Shown in pieces: positions 31,701 to 42,500 of a stretch of DNA of 64,000 nucleotides. Each line of letters starts with the position of its first letter. Position 1 is the first letter of the stretch. A program made the translations under genes and the position numbers. Source of the stretch: Fomitopsis serialis. Its lineage: Eukaryota > Basidiomycota > Agaricomycetes > Polyporales > Fomitopsidaceae. The DNA lies in the NCBI RefSeq assembly GCF_022376445.1, contig NW_025955105.1, positions 42,488 to 106,487 on the forward strand. The letters are read 5' to 3'. The notes beneath the pieces were generated by a model. The model made no database searches, was not told the origin of the DNA, and saw nothing but the letters and a program-made list of their open reading frames with translations.

Positions 31701-32891
31701 TCATTTGTCACGTATCGCAAGGCCTGTTCGCGATTGCGAGGGAGACTCGCGATCGCATTGAGATCGTCTGTGAGCAGTTCTTCGAATACCTGTGGACACG
31801 AGATGCATCGAATGCTAGTTTTAGCGCATGTCTCGAGGAGCCTGAGACGTCGTGGAATGATACCTTCGGTAGTGTACCTAGTGTGAGTAGCTTGAGGATC
31901 GTTTCCGCGGTCAATCGTGAGGGCCCCGACCGACGAGAATAGCCAAGAATTTCCAACATAGTCATGCTGCTATCGTGTAGGTACACGGAACGCCGACAAG
32001 CAATCCAGTAATCGTCACCACCGCGATCCTGGCCCCGTCCAGCAGAGCACAACCGGGTGAAGTCTTCGTCTGGGTAGCGGACAAGTGTACCACTCCAGTC
32101 GCCGCGTTGTACATGAAAGACTGAGTAACATCGGGGATTTCAGATCGACCGGTGCGAGAACACCAACCGGCCTTCTTCTGCAATCCACTGGAAACTCACC
32201 TGAAGTGTCCGGGGAAATTTGGACGTCTTCACAGATGCGCTTGGCGATTGACTCTTTGATGATGCCGCAGTCCTTTGTGTACAGAGACCCGCCCGAATCA
32301 TACAGATCATTTAACGTTGGGGCCACTCTGCCATTTGGGACCTGGCCGAGATAAATACTCCGTTTTCCCAGTACATCAAAATGTGGTTAAGGAGCGACTC
32401 ACGTCCAGGGTGCCCGTTGTGAAGGCAAAGGATATGCTAAGACGAGTGGCTAACCTCCCATAACCACTTTGAAGGCAGGCGGTGTCTAAATTGCCGAGTG
32501 CTTGAAGCAATCGAGGGGCAGTCCAGAAGGCGTCTTCACGAAAGAGCACCAATGTGCCTTTGTTGACGTGTTTGGCGGTGAATCCAAGAAAGGTATAGCT
32601 GGACGAGCGATTCATTCTCAACGTATTGAGAGGGATCCTTTCAATCGGAGTGGCTCACCGTTGACCATTCCACAACAGTCCTTTTGTTATCAAGCCAGCC
32701 ACCTTTTGACGGATGAGAGATTCAATGTCATCCGAGTTCGCCCGTGGGACGGACAGAAAAAGAAGGCGTCTGGGGTCGTCAATAATTCGTGTTACCCGCG
32801 AAGACCGGTGATCTCGAAGTTGTGGAGGGTACACTTGACCGTCTGTCGAAAGTCGAGTAGCCCATACGTGCACTGTAGGTGTGTGCGACAT
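28784..32891 (-). CDS. RdRP paralog with lost catalytic aspartates
   Basis: QDE-1/RDR-type cellular RNA-dependent RNA polymerase paralog, 1097 residues in 15 exons: 32891-32659, 32598-32403, 32341-32200, 32120-31864, 31789-31487, 31429-31311, 31253-31231, 31180-31121, 31067-31019, 30966-30675, 30621-30321, 30265-30170, 30114-30066, 30002-29926, 29880-28784. Seven internal exons have exactly the lengths of the right-hand paralog (43.4-47.8 kb). Alignment fixes the start: MSHTPTVHVWATR opposite MVNIPNVVVLAAR. The active-site loop DLDGD reads APDEH (residues 462-466), the FQIRRGGLKG motif reads FHVQRGDWSG, and NP in the loop before DIR is ES. Frames and splice sites are intact, so it looks like a pseudoenzyme rather than a dead gene. 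The last exon encodes an extension with two C-H-C-C clusters (CTNAPEHTW...CTNC; CWAEHHSW...CRAC). It may bind RNA or regulate the active paralog. Confidence 0.85.
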
Positions 32892-33325: not shown

Positions 33326-33333
33326 TGCGTTGT
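33326..33333 (+). repeat. candidate target-site duplication, left
   Basis: TGCGTTGT, repeated exactly at 39338-39345 on the other side of the inverted-repeat element. Eight bases is the target length of hAT and KDZ-type DNA transposons. Confidence 0.5.
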
Positions 33334-33377
33334 GTAGACCTCACTACGTACAATGACGAAATGTTCTGCAGTCAACC

Positions 33378-33545
33378 GTAACGTAGTCTCGGAACCAGCC
33401 GTTCGGAGGTGAGCGGAGATCGAAAAACACATACAAGAAACACCTCCAGAACGTCTGGTCGTCCTCGTAGAGACGGGGGGGTCTCACTCGACCCCGTGAC
33501 CAGACGCGTCGCGCGAGAGGCCGCAGAGGCGCATACATGCAGTGC
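33378..33545 (+). repeat. left terminal inverted repeat
   Basis: Left arm of the element. It includes a hairpin formed by 33394-33411 and 33441-33459 (ACCAGCCGTTC with GAACGTCTGGT, and GGAGGTG with CACCTCC) around a 29-nt A-rich loop. It also contains CGTCTGGTC and GACCAGACG as a second, overlapping inverted pair. Confidence 0.75.
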
Positions 33546-33629
33546 GATGCCTACGCGTCGTTTTACTTACCGTGCACAGCGTACACTTCCTGCCCTGTTA
33601 TTCTGCTTAGAATTTATCTCTACTGCTCC

Positions 33630-36309
33630 ATGTCATCATCTCGTGCTCAGAATGAAGATCCTCTACCTTCGCGTTCGTCACCAATCACAGAACGCAGCCG
33701 CCGCATGCTGGCCCAACTGACTGCTTCTGGGCACGCCCTCGATACTGTCCTCGAGATACTCCAATTCATGGACTCCAAAAAGGTCAACCTCGGTGTACTC
33801 GTGTCCATTATATGCTGGCATCCGGAATTTCCAGCTCTCGTCGAAAACGCGAAGGTTCAACATGCACGGACGTCCCTCACTCATATGCCAGATATCAAAA
33901 AATGGATAGAACGCATCTACCGTCCTCCTAGGCGACATAATGCTGGGATCAGTACCGAGGGCGCTCATGCGGCACTGCGGGACTTCGCGATGGATGTCGT
34001 CTCGCAGGAACTCGAGCAAGAGCTCAAAGCTCTCGACCCCATCATGCGATCAAAGCAGGACGAGCTGTCCGAGGAGAGTGTTCTCTCCATTAAGCTCGCA
34101 GATATGGAAAATAAGGTCACCTTGGCTGCTCCGAAAATGTGGAGGCTTCTCCGCGGTGTTTCGTACAGCGCTGTTCAGGAAAAGCGAAACACCATGAAAA
34201 ACCCGAACTCTGTATGTTGCGCATGAGCTGACTGAGCTGCACTCACACATTTCATCTAGACTGTGCTTATGATGATCACAATGATATGCTACTCACGCTC
34301 GCACCACCTCTGCCGATTCCAACAAATGCTCAGCCTCTACTTCCGAGCATGCGGCCTCGCGAGTGTCGCGTTCAACACGCTCAATGCGTTTTCGATCTGT
34401 ATGAATCAAAAATGGGTCTATCCTGCAGTGGATCGACTGGCTACCACGGCACACGAAGCTCTTCGGCGGGACATCGAGAGCTACCTATGGTTTGGCTCCC
34501 ACGACAATATCAACCGCAAAAACAAGAAATTCGAGCAGCGGCTTGACAACCAGTGCTCTTTCGAGAGCGGAACAGCTGGAACAATCTACATCATCAAGAA
34601 TCCCACCGTTGCTCGTTTGGACGCACGCGCTGTTCGCGAACAACTTCATCGGGGAAGCCAGGAACAGCTGTCCTTACGAGATCTCCTCCTCATGGATGCG
34701 AAGGCTGCTCCGCGCATTCTTGAGCGCGCAGTTTACCACGTCCTGTCGGTCCTTACGGAGGCTCCAGACTTCGAGTTCTCAAGCTATCAGTTCGCAGATC
34801 ACTCCGTCTTCCAGCCGCCCGCGCCCACAGTGCAACTGCCGACTGGTCCCGAACATGCTACGGTTGCGTACATGCTAAACACAGTCAAGATAGAAGAGGC
34901 GTCATATGAAGGCAACATACGCGTGATGCAGGAATGGGAACGACAGCTCGGCTTCAATACTCAAGAAAAGAAACAGAAGCTTGCGCGCGATGCGACTCTG
35001 GTCTGGGTTGGCGATCAGCTTACGGTCTCACGTCTACGTGGCATCCAACGGTTTCGCTGCGCTGACATGAATGCCTACGAGCGAATGGATCACGTTGTTC
35101 CTCAGTATGGCTGGTTCCACCTTGTAATCTCGAATCTGGCTTCGCTCCACTCGCAGTACTACGGGACCACTATTGGACGCGGACTGGCCTTTGCTATCGA
35201 GCTGCTTAACCGTAGACGGCTCAGTGCAACATCAGTACAAGGCCTATTCACACACGACATGTCTGAGCTCTTGGACCATCTCGGGACAGCTAGTCTGCGC
35301 GATGCTTGGTGCAAGGTGGCGAACGTCAAATCACTCTCGGATCTGGAGCTACGCAACCGACAACCCGAGGAATTGAGGGCTTTCGCTGAGAAGATCGTTG
35401 CTGAATACGCATCAACGAAGGCACTCGAATTGCACCGCGCAAAACCGAAGGCGCAGCATGACGAGCAGCTCCAGCAGCGCATCCAGTTCAATAGAGACAT
35501 CCTTGATTACTTCGACATCCGTGACTCAATCAAATCTGGCGATGTTGGGGCACTCGAAGAGCAACTTCCACGTCTTTTCATTCGCTTCCTAGGTGGCAAA
35601 AACTCGAACTACCACACTGAGGTCTTGGGTCTCATGCACTCGATGTACCGGGAGTGGACACCCGAGTTGCGGTACGTCTACTACCACCTAGTGCATACAA
35701 GAACCGTGCATTGACTCACCTTCTCATCTGTGTCATTCAGAAACCACGTCATGCAACATTGCTGGCTGGCAAACACTACCGGACGCCCGGATTCATTTCT
35801 CCCATTCGATCAGCTTCAAGAGCATAATATTCGGGATTTGAAGGTATGTCGTCCAGGACTCCGAACCTGTTTCCCATCTCCAGGTACTGACTCGTGCACG
35901 GTGGCAGTACATATTCGAGCTCATGGGGCCATACGCAACGTGGGAGCTACTTGGTCGTATGTCCGCGGCCATCCCGTGTCTACGGAAGCTGAAAGACCAC
36001 ATCGAAAGCGAGTTCAACCACTATCACCGCGGGAAATCGCATACCAGCCCAGATGCCGAGGAGGACATCGCGAAGCTGCACCAGGCGCTACGTGACTCGA
36101 AGGTCCACCAATACATTGCAGGACGAAGGGTTACGAAGAAAAACAAATACCCAGACGTCATGCGTGAAGGTAGCAATCCCGTGAAGATGAAAAAGGCATT
36201 GGATTCGTTTTACGAGAAACGCGAGTGCGATCGGGTAACAACGGAGCGCTATGTCGAACGTGAGAGTACAAGAGGGACTACAAACACGGCTGCTACTACT
36301 GGTCCATAG
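33630..36309 (+). CDS. DUF6589-like protein, candidate transposase
   Basis: 832 residues from four exons: 33630-34211, 34260-35671, 35741-35843 and 35908-36309. I recognise the family as the basidiomycete DUF6589 group from memory: landmarks are VWVGDQLTVSRLRGI (about residue 442), MDHVVPQYGWFHL, YYGTTIGRGLAFAIELLNRR and a TASLRDAWCKVA segment. The Asp in GDQLT and the Asp-His in MDHVVP are candidate metal-binding residues of a DDE-like fold; this is inference. ATG at 33630 is preferred; an in-frame ATG at 33537 would start inside the terminal repeat. The C-terminus is basic, then Thr-rich. Its stop overlaps the stop end of the RecQ gene by 14 bases. The frame is intact, so the element may be young. 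Confidence 0.75.
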
Positions 36310-39046
36310 GCATGTAAGCACGATTTGTGTATGAATAATACATGCCCGGCGGAGGATAGCCGGCATACTGTACCCCATTGGGCGGTGGTGCTGCGGTGAC
36401 ATAAGGATGTGGATGATGGAATGGTGTCCAGGTATAGTACGGTTGCCAGTGAGGTGGATGCGGTGGCATCGGTGGGTGGTACGGCACCGGGTTTGGCTGC
36501 GGCAGTAGGTGAGGTGGTGGCGGGAGGTGAGGTGGTGGTGGGAATTGAGGCGGATCCAGTCGGGGGTACAGCATCGGGTTTGGTGGCGCCAACAGGGGAA
36601 CAGGGGGTGGCACAAACGGAGGTGGGTATAGCGGTAACAGGCCCGGCTCTAGCTTGACAAGTTGCTGATGTCCTGGCGGAGGCGGTAGCAGACGGTCCTG
36701 CAACACGTCGCATCGTACATCTTCTCGCAAGCTAGATGTCGTCGGCTTGGGGACGGCCAGCTTCTCGAGACGCCGCTGTTCCTCACGGATAGCCTTGTTC
36801 TCGGCAGTTTGTACTTTACGCTGGTCGCTTCGTCCTCGCTTCCCGTGCTCGTTTTGCTCGCACCAGTATGAGTCAGCAGACCGCACCACCCCCAGAAGCT
36901 CTTCGCCATGGTCCTCGAAGAAAGCCCAGTCAGACAGGCCAGTACGCAAGTCATCCAGAGTCGTCATCCAGGCAGCGCGCGCAAGCTTAGTCGCAAGTTT
37001 GTCAGGTAGCAGACTTTCTGGACCCCAGATACAGATGGCATAGTCGCGTCGCCAGCACTGATGTCGCCAAGAAAGGACAGCCTCATGAACGTGCTTGTAT
37101 CGATCCCTCTGGCGGTTGCGTCCTTTACCCGGCGCTGCTGGCACAAGCTCAGAGTCTTCGATTTTGATTCCTGGCACTCCTGCGTCAGCCTCCGACTTGC
37201 GTTCCTGGATGGACTTGAGGAAGGAAACCATCCTGCTGTCGTCATCTGACAAGATCACCTCCGTATCCTCTTGCTTTCGTGCAAGGCATACATCGCAACA
37301 AGGGGCCTTGAGTCCTGTGTACGGAAATCAGTTGACAGTCAGATAATACACATATAATGCAAGGAATTACGTCTCTCGCTCGGCGGATTGGCAAAATACT
37401 CGTCAGCTACCTCTCGCCGACAGTTTGACGCCTCGAGCCAGGAGCGTAGACCCTCTTCAACCTTCTTCTGGAAGACCTTATCCTCGCTGTCGTCGTCTTC
37501 ATCTGCAGCAGCTAGATCTATCGCAGAGGTGTCATCATCCCCGCCAGCCACCTCTCTGGGCTCTTCCACAGCCCCATCATCGGACTCGGTGTCGTCGGCA
37601 TCCTCTGCCGTATCCCGCTTGGCCGTCCGCGGCTTGACCTTTTTGAACACGGACTGCTCAGCTAGCAGTATCGCAATGGCTGGCTTGCCATCACGACCCG
37701 CCCGGCCATAGCGCTGGAGCCATTGAGATAGCGAGGTCGGCACCATGAACTGTATCACGCGACGTATGTCGCTGATGTCGAGGCCCTACGAAAGGCGCAT
37801 TAGTTATATTTTGTCGAAGTGCTCGTCGGTACATACCATGCCAGCTGCTTCAGTCGCACACAAAATCGACAGCTCATTATTACGAAATCGCGCCATGACC
37901 TCCCGTTTTGAATCCTCGCCACGAAGAGCATGCAGAAAGTCGATCTTGTCCTTATAGGCATCCGGCAGCAGCTTCCTCAGATGCTGGAGGCCTCTATACG
38001 CCAGGTCTCGTGTGTTGAAGAAGATCAGCGTCTTGACCAAGGGCCCGCCGGCGAGAGCCTCGTTTACCGCGAAGTCCAGTGCCGAGAGGTCACTAGCACC
38101 ACCTTTCATGTGCACGACGAGAGGGGTAATGTTTGGCCGATCATTGCCCAGGTTCACGAAGAACGTCGACCTCGTAGAGAAGCCAAGTTTCGTCTGGATA
38201 TCCGAGAGCACGAGTGGAGGAAGGGTGGCTGAAGTAACTAGGAAAGGGATCCCGACGGGCACGAGAGCGCGAAGCCGGCCCAACTCGCCATACTTCTTCC
38301 GGAAGCTGTCGCCCCACTGGGAGATGCAGTGCGCCTCGTCTATAACGATCGCGGCGATGTCTTTGGCGAACGCGGGCGACCGGAGCAGCTTCGAGAACTT
38401 CTCGTGCTCAAGAGCCATCTCGGGACCCGTGAGTAACATGCGGTACTTGCGATCTTCGATGTCCTGTGCACGATTGTGAGCGAGTTCAGTTCGTTATTTG
38501 TGAATGAACATACCTTGTGCAGCTTTTCCGAGTAATCCTCTTTATTGATCGCGGTAGCTGTCAGGCCCATCTTGCGAAACCGCTCAGCCTATTGTATACG
38601 ATGTGCATTAGCAGCTGGACTCCAAGCAATGTCTTCGTGCTCACCTGATCTCTCTCCAGCTCATTGAGTGGTGATATAACCACCACTATTTTCCGGCCTG
38701 TTTCATCCGCCAAGAGGGGCATCGCAAACGGCATCGTCTTTCCCGCGCCAGTCCCTGCGATAACTATGCAGTCTAACCCGAGTTTCGTCGCTTCTGTGAC
38801 GTCGACCTGCCAGTCATACGGAGTCATCCCATCTGCATTCGCCTCGATGAACTTCTCGCGGATATATTGGCGTGCCGCCTCGGAGTCGTAGCCGCGAGAT
38901 TTGTGGGCGGCGGCGCGAGTGATGGCGAGCACCTCGGTGAAGGCCTGCGTGATTCCTCGAACGTGAAGCCGCGGAGGTGTCGCCGTTGTGGGCTTGGTCG
39001 TTTTAGGAGGCATCGCCGTTGTAGGCTTGGTCGTTTTAGGAGGCAT
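36296..39046 (-). CDS. RecQ-family DNA helicase (element cargo)
   Basis: ATP-dependent 3'-5' DNA helicase of the RecQ family, 845 residues from five exons (39046-38645, 38588-38514, 38463-37837, 37785-37371, 37314-36296). All motifs are present: motif I AGTGAGKT (97-104), ISPLNELERDQ, motif II IDEAHCISQWG (200-210), motif III TSATLPP, IFFNTR, CATEAAGMGLDISD and motif VI QRYGRAGRDG (392-401). An acidic insert follows. A CCDVC fragment remains of the RecQ zinc region; HRDC is not seen. The last 150 residues are rich in Pro, His and Tyr. The N-terminus repeats MPPKTTKPTTA twice. Compared with Bloom/Sgs1 it is short, and it lies wholly between the inverted repeats, so it is probably element cargo. 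Neurospora QDE-3 is also a RecQ helicase. Confidence 0.9.
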
Positions 39047-39094
39047 GGTAGATGAAGGACGGAGGGTACGGATGATGCGACGTATCTGAGCAAG

Positions 39095-39290
39095 CAGCGT
39101 CGCTGCGTGTATGCGCCGTGCGCCTCTCGCGCGGCGCGTTTCGTCACGGGATCGAGTGAGACCCCCCCCTCTCTACGAGAACGACCAGACGTTCTAGAGG
39201 CACTTCTGGTTTTTCTTTTTCGATCTCCGCTGACGTGTGCACGTGCCTCTAGAACGGCTGGTTCCGAGACTACCGTAACGGAACGTTCGT
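39095..39290 (-). repeat. right terminal inverted repeat
   Basis: Right arm of the element, inverted relative to 33378-33545. It contains the matching hairpin: 39184-39203 pairs with 39243-39262 with one mismatch in 20. The outer stem is the same as on the left (ACCAG...CGTTC), but the inner stem is TAGAGGCAC/GTGCCTCTA instead of GGAGGTG/CACCTCC. Confidence 0.75.
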
Positions 39291-39337
39291 CGACTTGTTC
39301 GGTGCAGTGCACGTGTACGTACGTAGTAATGATATTA

Positions 39338-39345
39338 TGCGTTGT
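39338..39345 (+). repeat. candidate target-site duplication, right
   Basis: TGCGTTGT, exact partner of 33326-33333. It lies 165 bases upstream of the RNA14 start codon, so the element may have displaced the promoter shared by RNA14 and the minus-strand RdRP paralog. Confidence 0.5.
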
Positions 39346-39509: not shown

Positions 39510-42500
39510 ATGTCCGAGGCTCAACCAATGGTTGTAGATCCACCAGATTCTGGCGACGCGTCCTTTCAAGTCGGCGAAGAAGACAAGACACAACCAACCG
39601 AGGAGATCTTGAACGCGTTGCGGCAACTCAACCCTAGCTCCTTTGCGCACCCTCAGAACGGCAACACGAACGTGCAGAGCCCTGGTAAGCAGGAACCGAC
39701 ACCTCCACCTCCGTCAGAATGGGAACAACTACGCGCACAATTGCGGGGAAAACCTTATGATGCAGACGGGTGGCTGAGACTGGTCGACCTCGCAGAAGAC
39801 TCTGGTGACATCGACAGAATCAAAGAAACCTACGAGGGACTGTTGGAAGCATACCCAAACACTGTTCGCGACCCTTTTGTGTGCGTTACACGCTGCCAAC
39901 TCACTGCCCATCCAGTCTTCTGCCCAGATAGCCTACCTGAACCATTACACCGACAACCCTGAGACGTTCGGATCTGCCGTGGCCTTGTTCAAGCGTTATC
40001 TCACCAAGTCGTCTTCTGTGGACCTCTGGAAGTTCTACCTCACTTTCGTCAGGTAAGTGGCCCCTCAGTCGAAACCGTTCCAGAAGGCCGCATGTTTGCA
40101 AAACTCGTCTGCTTCAGTGAATGACATAGGACGCCAACGGGAACGTGGAGCGCATACGTGTTATCCTGCGTGATGGCTTCCCCGGCTTGTGTGACGGACT
40201 GCTTCAATCCATATTCAATGCCACCCTGACTTGCATCGTGCGACCTCCAGCCAGGCAATTATCAACTCGTCCGAACATGCTCTCTGATTCCGTGGTTACA
40301 GGAGAGTCAACACTGGTCCGAACTCGCGTGAAGTGATCCGTACGGCCTATGAGTTCGCCCTGAACCATGTCGGCCAGGACAAGGACAGCGGCGACATGTG
40401 GAGTGACTACCTGCAGTTTCTGAAAGCCGGCGAGGTGTGTACCGAACCAGAACCATACACACCGGTTCACTCACACATAGACAGACGACGTCAACATGGG
40501 AGGAGCAACAAAAGATGGACGCAGTGCGCAAGGCGTATCAGCGAGCGGTCCAGATCCCGATAGACAACATCAAGCGGCTGTGGGAGGAGTACCAGGACTT
40601 TGAGAATGGGCTGAACAGGATCACGGTGAGCACCCTTGTTCTCGCATCAATGCGCTACCGACGCTCATGAGAAGGCAGGCGAAGAAGTTCTTGTCCGACC
40701 TGCAGGAGAGTCACATGCAGGCGCGTACCGTCCTGACGACCCTACAGGAGCACCTGACCATCCTCTTTCCCCCTCCTCCGCCGTCGAGGTCGTCGCGGCC
40801 GCCGATATGGCTTCCCCGATCCCCGACATTCAACGCCGGCGACAGGGCGTTGGTTGGGCGGTGGCGTCAGTACCTGAAGTGGGAGGAGAGCAATCCGTTG
40901 AAGCTGGATGATAAGGAGAAGGGCAACCTGCACGCGCGTCTTCAAGGCGTGTACAAGAAGGCCGTGGTCCGTATGCGGTTCTTCTCGGAAATTTGGTATG
41001 TGTCGAGCGTCTCTTGGACAGCCGACTAGCTCACTCGCTTGTCGGGATAGGTACATGGCGTACGTATGGACAAGTAGTATTGGTAAAACGGACGAAGCTC
41101 TTGCTCTTCTGAAAGCTGGAATAGATGCGAATCCGTCTAGGTAAGTTTTGTGCTATTGATATCTTGACGGCGCTGACGTCGCCCATAGCTTTGTTCTCAA
41201 CTATTCCTACGCAGAAGCGCAAGAGACGGCGAAAAACGTCGCGGAAGTTCACTCGACGTTCGAAAAATTTCTTGATGTGCTCAAAACGGACCTCGACGCG
41301 GTCGAGAGCAGGATCAACTCGGCCAACTCGTCGTTCTCGTCGAACATCTCTCCGTCGCAAAAGACGGAACCGGCTGAGAACTCCCAGCCCGACCCCAGCT
41401 CTCAGTCGCAAGGTGGCTCATTCGCTACGGAAAAGTCGGACGAGAAGCCGCTCAAGAACAAGGAGCTCACCGAGCGGCGGACGGAATACGGCATCGCGTG
41501 GGTGTCGTACATGCGATTTGCCAGACGCGCGGAGGGCCTGAAACCGTCGCGAGCTGTGTTTGGTAAGGCGAGGAAGGAGCGTTGGACGCCCTGGGAAGTG
41601 TACGAGGCTGCTGGTGAGCGTAGTCGCCTTAATCTTCGTACGACGACGATTGACTGGCGTGATGAATGCTAGCGCTGATGGAATACCACTGCAACAAGGC
41701 GGCCGATGTCGCGAACCGCATCTTCGAGAAGGGGATGGAGACGTTCAGCGACGAAGCGGACTTTGTCCTGCGGTACCTAGGATACCTCATTTCAGTCAAC
41801 GACGAAAACAGTAGGTCCTCGTTGGTTTCATACGAGCTCTTCGTGACTGACATGCTCGGTGCAGATGCTCGGGCGCTTTTCGAGCGTGTCATTGGCACAT
41901 TCCCGCCTGAGAAAGCGCGGCCGTTATGGGAGCGCTGGTCGAGATACGAGTATCAGTATGGCGACCTCGAGGCTGCGCATAAGCTCGAGAAGCGCATGGC
42001 AGAGGCATATCCGAACGGTGAGCACGCTCCCAGAAACGTCGTCGTCTCTTGGTTCTGACCGATCTATGTAGACCCTCCGATCAAGCGCTTCGCGGAGCGG
42101 TACAAGTATCTGGGTACGGATGCGATCGCCAACCGCGACCTGGGCTTCAGCCTCTCTCGCCAGGGCAGCGGCAGCAGTCGCTCGAACGGCAGTGGCACCC
42201 TTGGCCGTACTGAAACGCAGATGTCTCTTGTCTCCAACCCGGCCTCGCAGTCCCAGGGGGCGCCGAGTTCGTCCAAACGGCCTCCGTCTCCGGAGGCACA
42301 CAGCAGGAGGCGAGACGACAGCCGTGCGCCTGACTATGGCCCACCGTCCAAGCGGCAGCGAGCGGGCTCACGCGAACGGGAGCGGGATGCTAGGTGGGAC
42401 GGCCCGCCTCGGCGACGTTATGGCAGCCCCGGGTGGGACAGGGAACGCGACAGGGATGCGCCCGGACGTCGGAGCATGAAGGAGGAGAGAGAGGAGGAGA

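Follow-up and report, generated by a model that had tools for sequence, protein, structure and literature searches.

The window, the whole 64,000-nucleotide stretch of the brown-rot polypore Fomitopsis serialis analysed here, is part of a contig (NW_025955105.1, below C52; other contigs are likewise given C numbers) of a 66.2-Mb assembly and extends up to its base 106,487. Between window positions 33384 and 39272 it holds a mobile DNA transposon of 5,889 bp that carries a gene for a DUF6589 protein, likely its transposase, and a gene for a RecQ-family helicase. As the first-pass annotation of this DNA had stated, there are exactly two intact spliced genes, facing each other tail to tail: one of 832 amino acids (aa) on the plus strand and one of 845 aa on the minus strand. 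All of their introns are GT..AG, and at 36296-36309 the two coding sequences share their last 14 bp. The features of the locus are as follows:

33326..33333, with partner 39338-39345 (no strand): TGCGTTGT, a chance repeat in the host flank, outside the element
33376..33383 (no strand): left target-site duplication CCGTAACG, exact and adjoining the tip; elsewhere in the window this 8-mer is found only at 39273
33384..33404 (plus): left perfect 21-bp terminal inverted repeat TAGTCTCGGAACCAGCCGTTC; the copies on C94, C46, and C95 start at the same base
33384..33550 (plus): extended inverted repeat of the left end (167 bp), which includes an interrupted palindrome, ACCAGcCGTTCGGAGGT...ACCTCCaGAACGtCTGGT, in subterminal position (from alignment and folding)
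33630..36309 (plus): DUF6589 protein, 832 aa, putative DDE transposase; exons 33630-34211, 34260-35671, 35741-35843, 35908-36309
36296..39046 (minus): RecQ-family DNA helicase, 845 aa, with a proline-rich tail; exons 39046-38645, 38588-38514, 38463-37837, 37785-37371, 37314-36296
39094..39272 (minus): extended inverted repeat of the right end (179 bp), which includes a 20-nt palindrome (39184-39203 pairing with 39243-39262)
39252..39272 (minus): right perfect 21-bp terminal inverted repeat
39273..39280 (no strand): right target-site duplication CCGTAACG, an exact 8-mer

Limits of the Element

The element had at first been drawn with inverted repeats of about 200 bp at its ends and with TGCGTTGT, an exact 8-bp direct repeat at 33326 and 39338, as its target-site duplication. 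Long inverted repeats are indeed present, but these limits lie 50-65 bp too far out. A repeat search of the window found arms of 122 nt at 84% identity, plus arms of 22 nt at 100%; in a single alignment the repeats measure 167 by 179 bp, beginning at 33384 and ending at 39272, and it is this alignment, together with the adjoining 8-bp repeats, that gives the corrected span. The outermost 21 bases, TAGTCTCGGAACCAGCCGTTC, are identical at the left and right tips as terminal inverted repeats. The 8-mer CCGTAACG adjoins both tips exactly and occurs at no other site in the window on either strand, and those matches from the element's own genome that reach one of its ends stop at 33384 or 39272, or no more than 3 bases away.

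TGCGTTGT does occur at the two positions reported, and only there within the window (both strands counted), but it lies 50 bp beyond the left tip and 65 bp beyond the right. It is placed outside the element because the inverted repeats and the other copies, including that on C94, end at the tips given above, and because a contig without the element (C135) has much of the outer sequence. As a target-site duplication it is therefore ruled out in favor of CCGTAACG, and the pair is a chance repeat in the host flank. For comparison, some common 8-mer was found in 3.8% of random pairs of 60-nt stretches of the window; the chance that two single 8-mers drawn at random from it are equal is 1.25e-5.

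Other Copies and a Haplotype without the Element

The own-genome search, whose counts are lower bounds, found a 973-bp internally deleted copy at C94:43904-44876, with pieces 95-99% identical to the window element, the same terminal bases, and an exact 8-bp duplication of its own, GCTGGACG; no second full-length copy was among the matches listed. Single ends or fragments are found on C223, C341, C46, C95, and C5. Both insertions of this family with exact repeats (window and C94) have an 8-bp duplication, while the flank bases of a mini-element on C95 agree at only 6 of 8 positions. A 13-base tip pattern with at most one mismatch was found at 119 places, compared with 114 for a reversed control, and is uninformative beyond nine exact sites; two of the nine (C135:386618 and C211:5955) have near-identical surroundings that do not resemble element ends.

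A site without the element, of the sort that the first reading proposed to look for in sister strains, is found on C135, which parallels C52 on both sides of the element; sampled stretches are 91-97% identical, apart from 403 bp left of the insertion site (75%). Comparison of the two contigs places no element at the homologous site. There C135 reads AGTCAACGGCACGTTTGTCGACTTG; joining the window flanks around a single copy of the duplication would give AGTCAACCGTAACGGAACGTTCGTCGACTTG. The 6 bp by which the two differ fall within the duplication and may reflect a simple indel, of which there are several nearby, or the footprint of a past excision. The outer left stretch of the original drawing is kept in C135, and the outer right stretch is kept for roughly its first 23 bases, beyond which C135 and the window differ by other insertions. 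More broadly, the assembly holds two divergent versions of the window region (C52 and C135:129766-192680) with kilobase-scale length differences besides the element; the spacing between window positions 41300 and 50000 differs by ~31 kb.

By its tips, its duplication, its deletion copy, and the insert-free haplotype, then, the window element is a mobile DNA transposon. Recent activity, proposed earlier from the intact reading frames, is suggested also by the 95-99% identity of the C94 pieces and the exact duplications at both copies.

The DUF6589 and RecQ Proteins

The deposited model of the first gene (P0001) matches Pfam PF20231 (DUF6589) with an E value of 3.9e-114, and the gene has the protein-database entry Fomitopsis serialis B0H18DRAFT_886378. 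DUF6589 was the only family found in a Pfam scan at E up to 0.01, with no match to hAT, KDZ, or any other transposase family. Structure prediction for the protein yields an RNase H-type core, for which the nearest solved folds are those of Hermes and the P element; that other families are missing from the list of structural matches is no evidence against them. Foldseek with this model gave nothing at E < 0.001 and is by itself non-significant (its first-ranked match was an unrelated protein, probability 0.10), and a profile of the DUF6589 alignment, searched against PDB sequences, matched nothing at E up to 1. Three conserved acidic residues, D276/D446/E692 in the 832-aa numbering and D251/D421/E667 in P0001, form a candidate catalytic triad. 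By predicted fold and these residues, the DUF6589 protein is likely a DDE transposase, in agreement with the earlier suggestion. No treatment of DUF6589 or PF20231 as a transposase was found in the literature searched, which was covered in part.

The second protein matches solved structures of RecQ, WRN, and BLM, the best PDB entry for RecQ being 4tmu (E 4.4e-37). Its match to TIGR00614 (recQ_fam; E 1.3e-56) scores 192 bits, which is below the NCBI curated cut-off of 219.8. Cysteines behind the helicase core suggest, by eye, a zinc-binding stretch of the RecQ type, where the profile match is non-significant. Near the gene start there is a 33-bp tandem duplication (window 38973-39038), as a result of which the initial 11 residues (MPPKTTKPTTA) occur twice.

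Pairing of the Two Genes

In the F. serialis genome, the Pfam DUF6589 profile gives 93 exon matches, merged into 46 loci, and the window RecQ as query gives 60 matches, merged into 45. A RecQ match lies no more than 9 kb from 33 of the 46 DUF6589 loci, against a chance expectation of ~0.014 per locus. The number of independent pairs is smaller than 33, since a single insertion is in some cases counted on several contigs that overlap or represent haplotypes (C235, C390, and C523 share a common site). In all 33 pairs the two genes occupy opposite strands; 23 pairs are arranged tail to tail and 10 head to head, the latter on C1, C34, C48, C64, C77, C124, C156, C162, and C632. For six of the 13 unpaired loci, the contig starts no more than 8 kb away. 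Helicases at the other paired loci are about 28-46% identical to that of the window. RecQ is a standing part of DUF6589 elements in this genome, and the pair is seen in other basidiomycetes as well: by eye, among the matches listed, the two genes have consecutive locus tags in Hermanssonia (3675/3676) and Phlebia (g3332/g3333), and in Panus and one further source both genes are listed on contigs of the same length.

On C113, two inverted DUF6589-RecQ elements with equal match scores (269662-274168 and 276964-281478) lie ~3 kb apart, resembling a palindrome or an assembly join.

Ends of Sister Families and Subterminal Palindromes

In four insertions of sister families, which carry both genes as well, the duplications measure 9 bp: C556 (ACGTGTACG), C235/C390/C523 (GGATCCATC or its complement), C805 (GTTCTTTGC), and C446 (TCTTTACGT). 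Tips in the sister families are TAGTCTCG, TAGGTTCG, and TAGGCTCG, with CAGGCTCC in C805. An automatic end search at six further loci was clear for C805 and C446 and found no ends for C4 and C77. For C34 and C255 the ends are tentative, likewise with 9-bp repeats, at scores of 28 and 27 compared with 29 for the best of 60 shuffled sequences. The top-scoring C34 pair (score 33), ~100 bp further in, has a 7-bp repeat and a 19/20 inverted repeat; the outer pair was preferred for its tip sequence and 9-bp repeat. The search returned nothing usable for L029, L030, and L031; the ends of L030 were resolved through its tip sequence. At the flanks of a short element on C54 no duplication was seen.

In several families a palindrome lies just inside the tips, with its arm starting 9-20 bases from the end. 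Its sequence varies from family to family, and the left and right ends of the window element differ in it too, but it remains self-complementary. Palindromes of this kind are located at 33384-33460 and 39184-39272 in the window and at the ends of L050, L052, and L030. They beat all 60 mononucleotide shuffles at 5 of 11 ends, two of the five being the tentative C34 ends; the interrupted stem on the left side of the window element scores no better than its shuffles. Of 16 ends, several of them copies of one another, 11 have folding z scores below -1.3; 40 interior control stretches had a mean of -0.01, a standard deviation of 1.10, and a minimum of -2.93. No palindrome was seen at the C805 ends. 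Where present, the palindromes may serve the transposase as a paired binding site, or offer the helicase a structure to act on.

Relation to Known Transposons

DNA transposons that encode a RecQ helicase are already described from fungi, and the window element is most likely a variant of AcademH type or close kin, Academ being known here from descriptions alone. AcademH was reportedly first described by Kojima in 2020, in Mobile DNA 11:15. In the excerpted literature, from which the published statements in this section are taken, AcademH elements encode a helicase and make duplications of 9 or 10 bp (AcademX, 3-4 bp; PMC10045372), and are low-copy elements of Basidiomycota, Ascomycota, and Mucoromycota (PMC10799480). 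Recognizable domains, for example DEAD/DEAH helicase and recQ_fam, were found in 1,568 of 1,938 fungal Academ copies (PMC6416283). The initial view that the element belongs to an undescribed kind was, judging by these excerpts, mostly wrong.

What the window element has in common with AcademH, besides host range and helicase, is terminal inverted repeats (21 bp perfect within ~170-180 bp) and, by predicted fold and acidic residues, a DDD/E transposase with an RNase H-type core. Its 8-bp duplications, its link to DUF6589, and the hairpins inside several ends differ from AcademH as described. The first of these weighs against the assignment, 8 bp in the window family being outside the 9 or 10 bp of AcademH, within which the four sister insertions fall. 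Since duplication length differs, and since Academ was compared by description and not by transposase sequence, the element is filed as a variant and not as a proven Academ member.

Probably, then, this 5,889-bp cut-and-paste transposon belongs to the fungal Academ/AcademH type or is closely related to it, with DUF6589 as its DDE transposase and RecQ acting on the same DNA. As far as sequence and predicted fold can indicate, the transposase would bind the ~170-180-bp ends, cut at TAGTC..GACTA, and insert the element through an 8-bp staggered cut. The helicase would most likely melt the hairpin-prone ends, or process the broken donor or gapped target.

It is also possible, if unlikely, that these elements form a separate, unnamed superfamily, with DUF6589 transposases unrelated to those of Academ and only the RecQ habit in common. 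Duplications of 8 bp here and 9 bp in the sisters, compared with the 9-10 bp of AcademH, would fit, as would the failure to find DUF6589 in the part of the literature covered, where PF20231 turned up only as a string in an unrelated nanophotonics paper. Both nearest solved folds, moreover, belong to 8-bp duplicators: the excerpts state this length for hAT, and P elements also make 8-bp duplications. On the other side, the 9-bp duplications of sister families that carry both genes are of the length expected for AcademH, and helicase and recQ_fam among the example domains of fungal Academ copies (PMC6416283) would otherwise be a striking coincidence. A more specific proposal, that DUF6589/RecQ elements are a large mushroom superfamily of their own in which a dedicated opposite-strand RecQ is needed to melt or process hairpin-folding ends, is likewise improbable.

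Membership in hAT (Hermes) could be argued from the 8-bp duplication, but only PF20231 was matched in Pfam, and the window element has a helicase, a difference from the P element as well. In the Zisupton/KDZ group, also fungal, 8-bp duplications are stated for Zisupton and Dileera; here there is no KDZ match in Pfam, and the partner is RecQ, where some KDZ elements have TET/JBP. Helitrons combine an HUH nuclease with a helicase, and have neither inverted repeats nor a duplication. The inverted repeats and 8-bp duplication rule this class out, and domain scans found no HUH domain.

The other RecQ-encoding lineage of fungal transposons, KolobokH, which is known from fungi alone (PMC9587614), is a very improbable identity. 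Its TTAA duplications, compared with CCGTAACG and GCTGGACG here, already contradict it, and the window helicase, being on the opposite strand, also speaks against it. Cut-and-paste elements can capture genes, so RecQ could conceivably be a passenger host gene caught by chance in a DUF6589 transposon; this too has very little chance of being correct, given the pairing at 33 of 46 loci in two arrangements but always on opposite strands, the divergence of the paired helicases, and the same pairing in other basidiomycetes. That there is no transposon at all, only two neighboring host genes, both with intact frames, between chance repeats, is hardly credible in view of the exact tips and duplication, the deletion copy elsewhere, and the haplotype without the insert.

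DUF6589, a large family of unknown function with 93 exon matches in this genome alone, thereby gains a likely one, probably that of a DDE transposase. Many RecQ-like and DUF6589 genes annotated as host genes in mushrooms may be transposon genes; a similar remark has been made, in the excerpt consulted, for Academ genes (PMC6416283). The conserved pairing makes it testable why a cut-and-paste transposon keeps a RecQ helicase of its own, with the natural deletion copy as substrate.

Two further observations concern the neighborhood of the element. A piece resembling an RNA-dependent RNA polymerase was noted by eye near 32015-32326 on the minus strand, with no Pfam match in the scan that identified another: beyond the RNA14-like gene, an open frame at window 43886-44980 matches the RNA-dependent RNA polymerase family PF05183 (E 1.5e-13).
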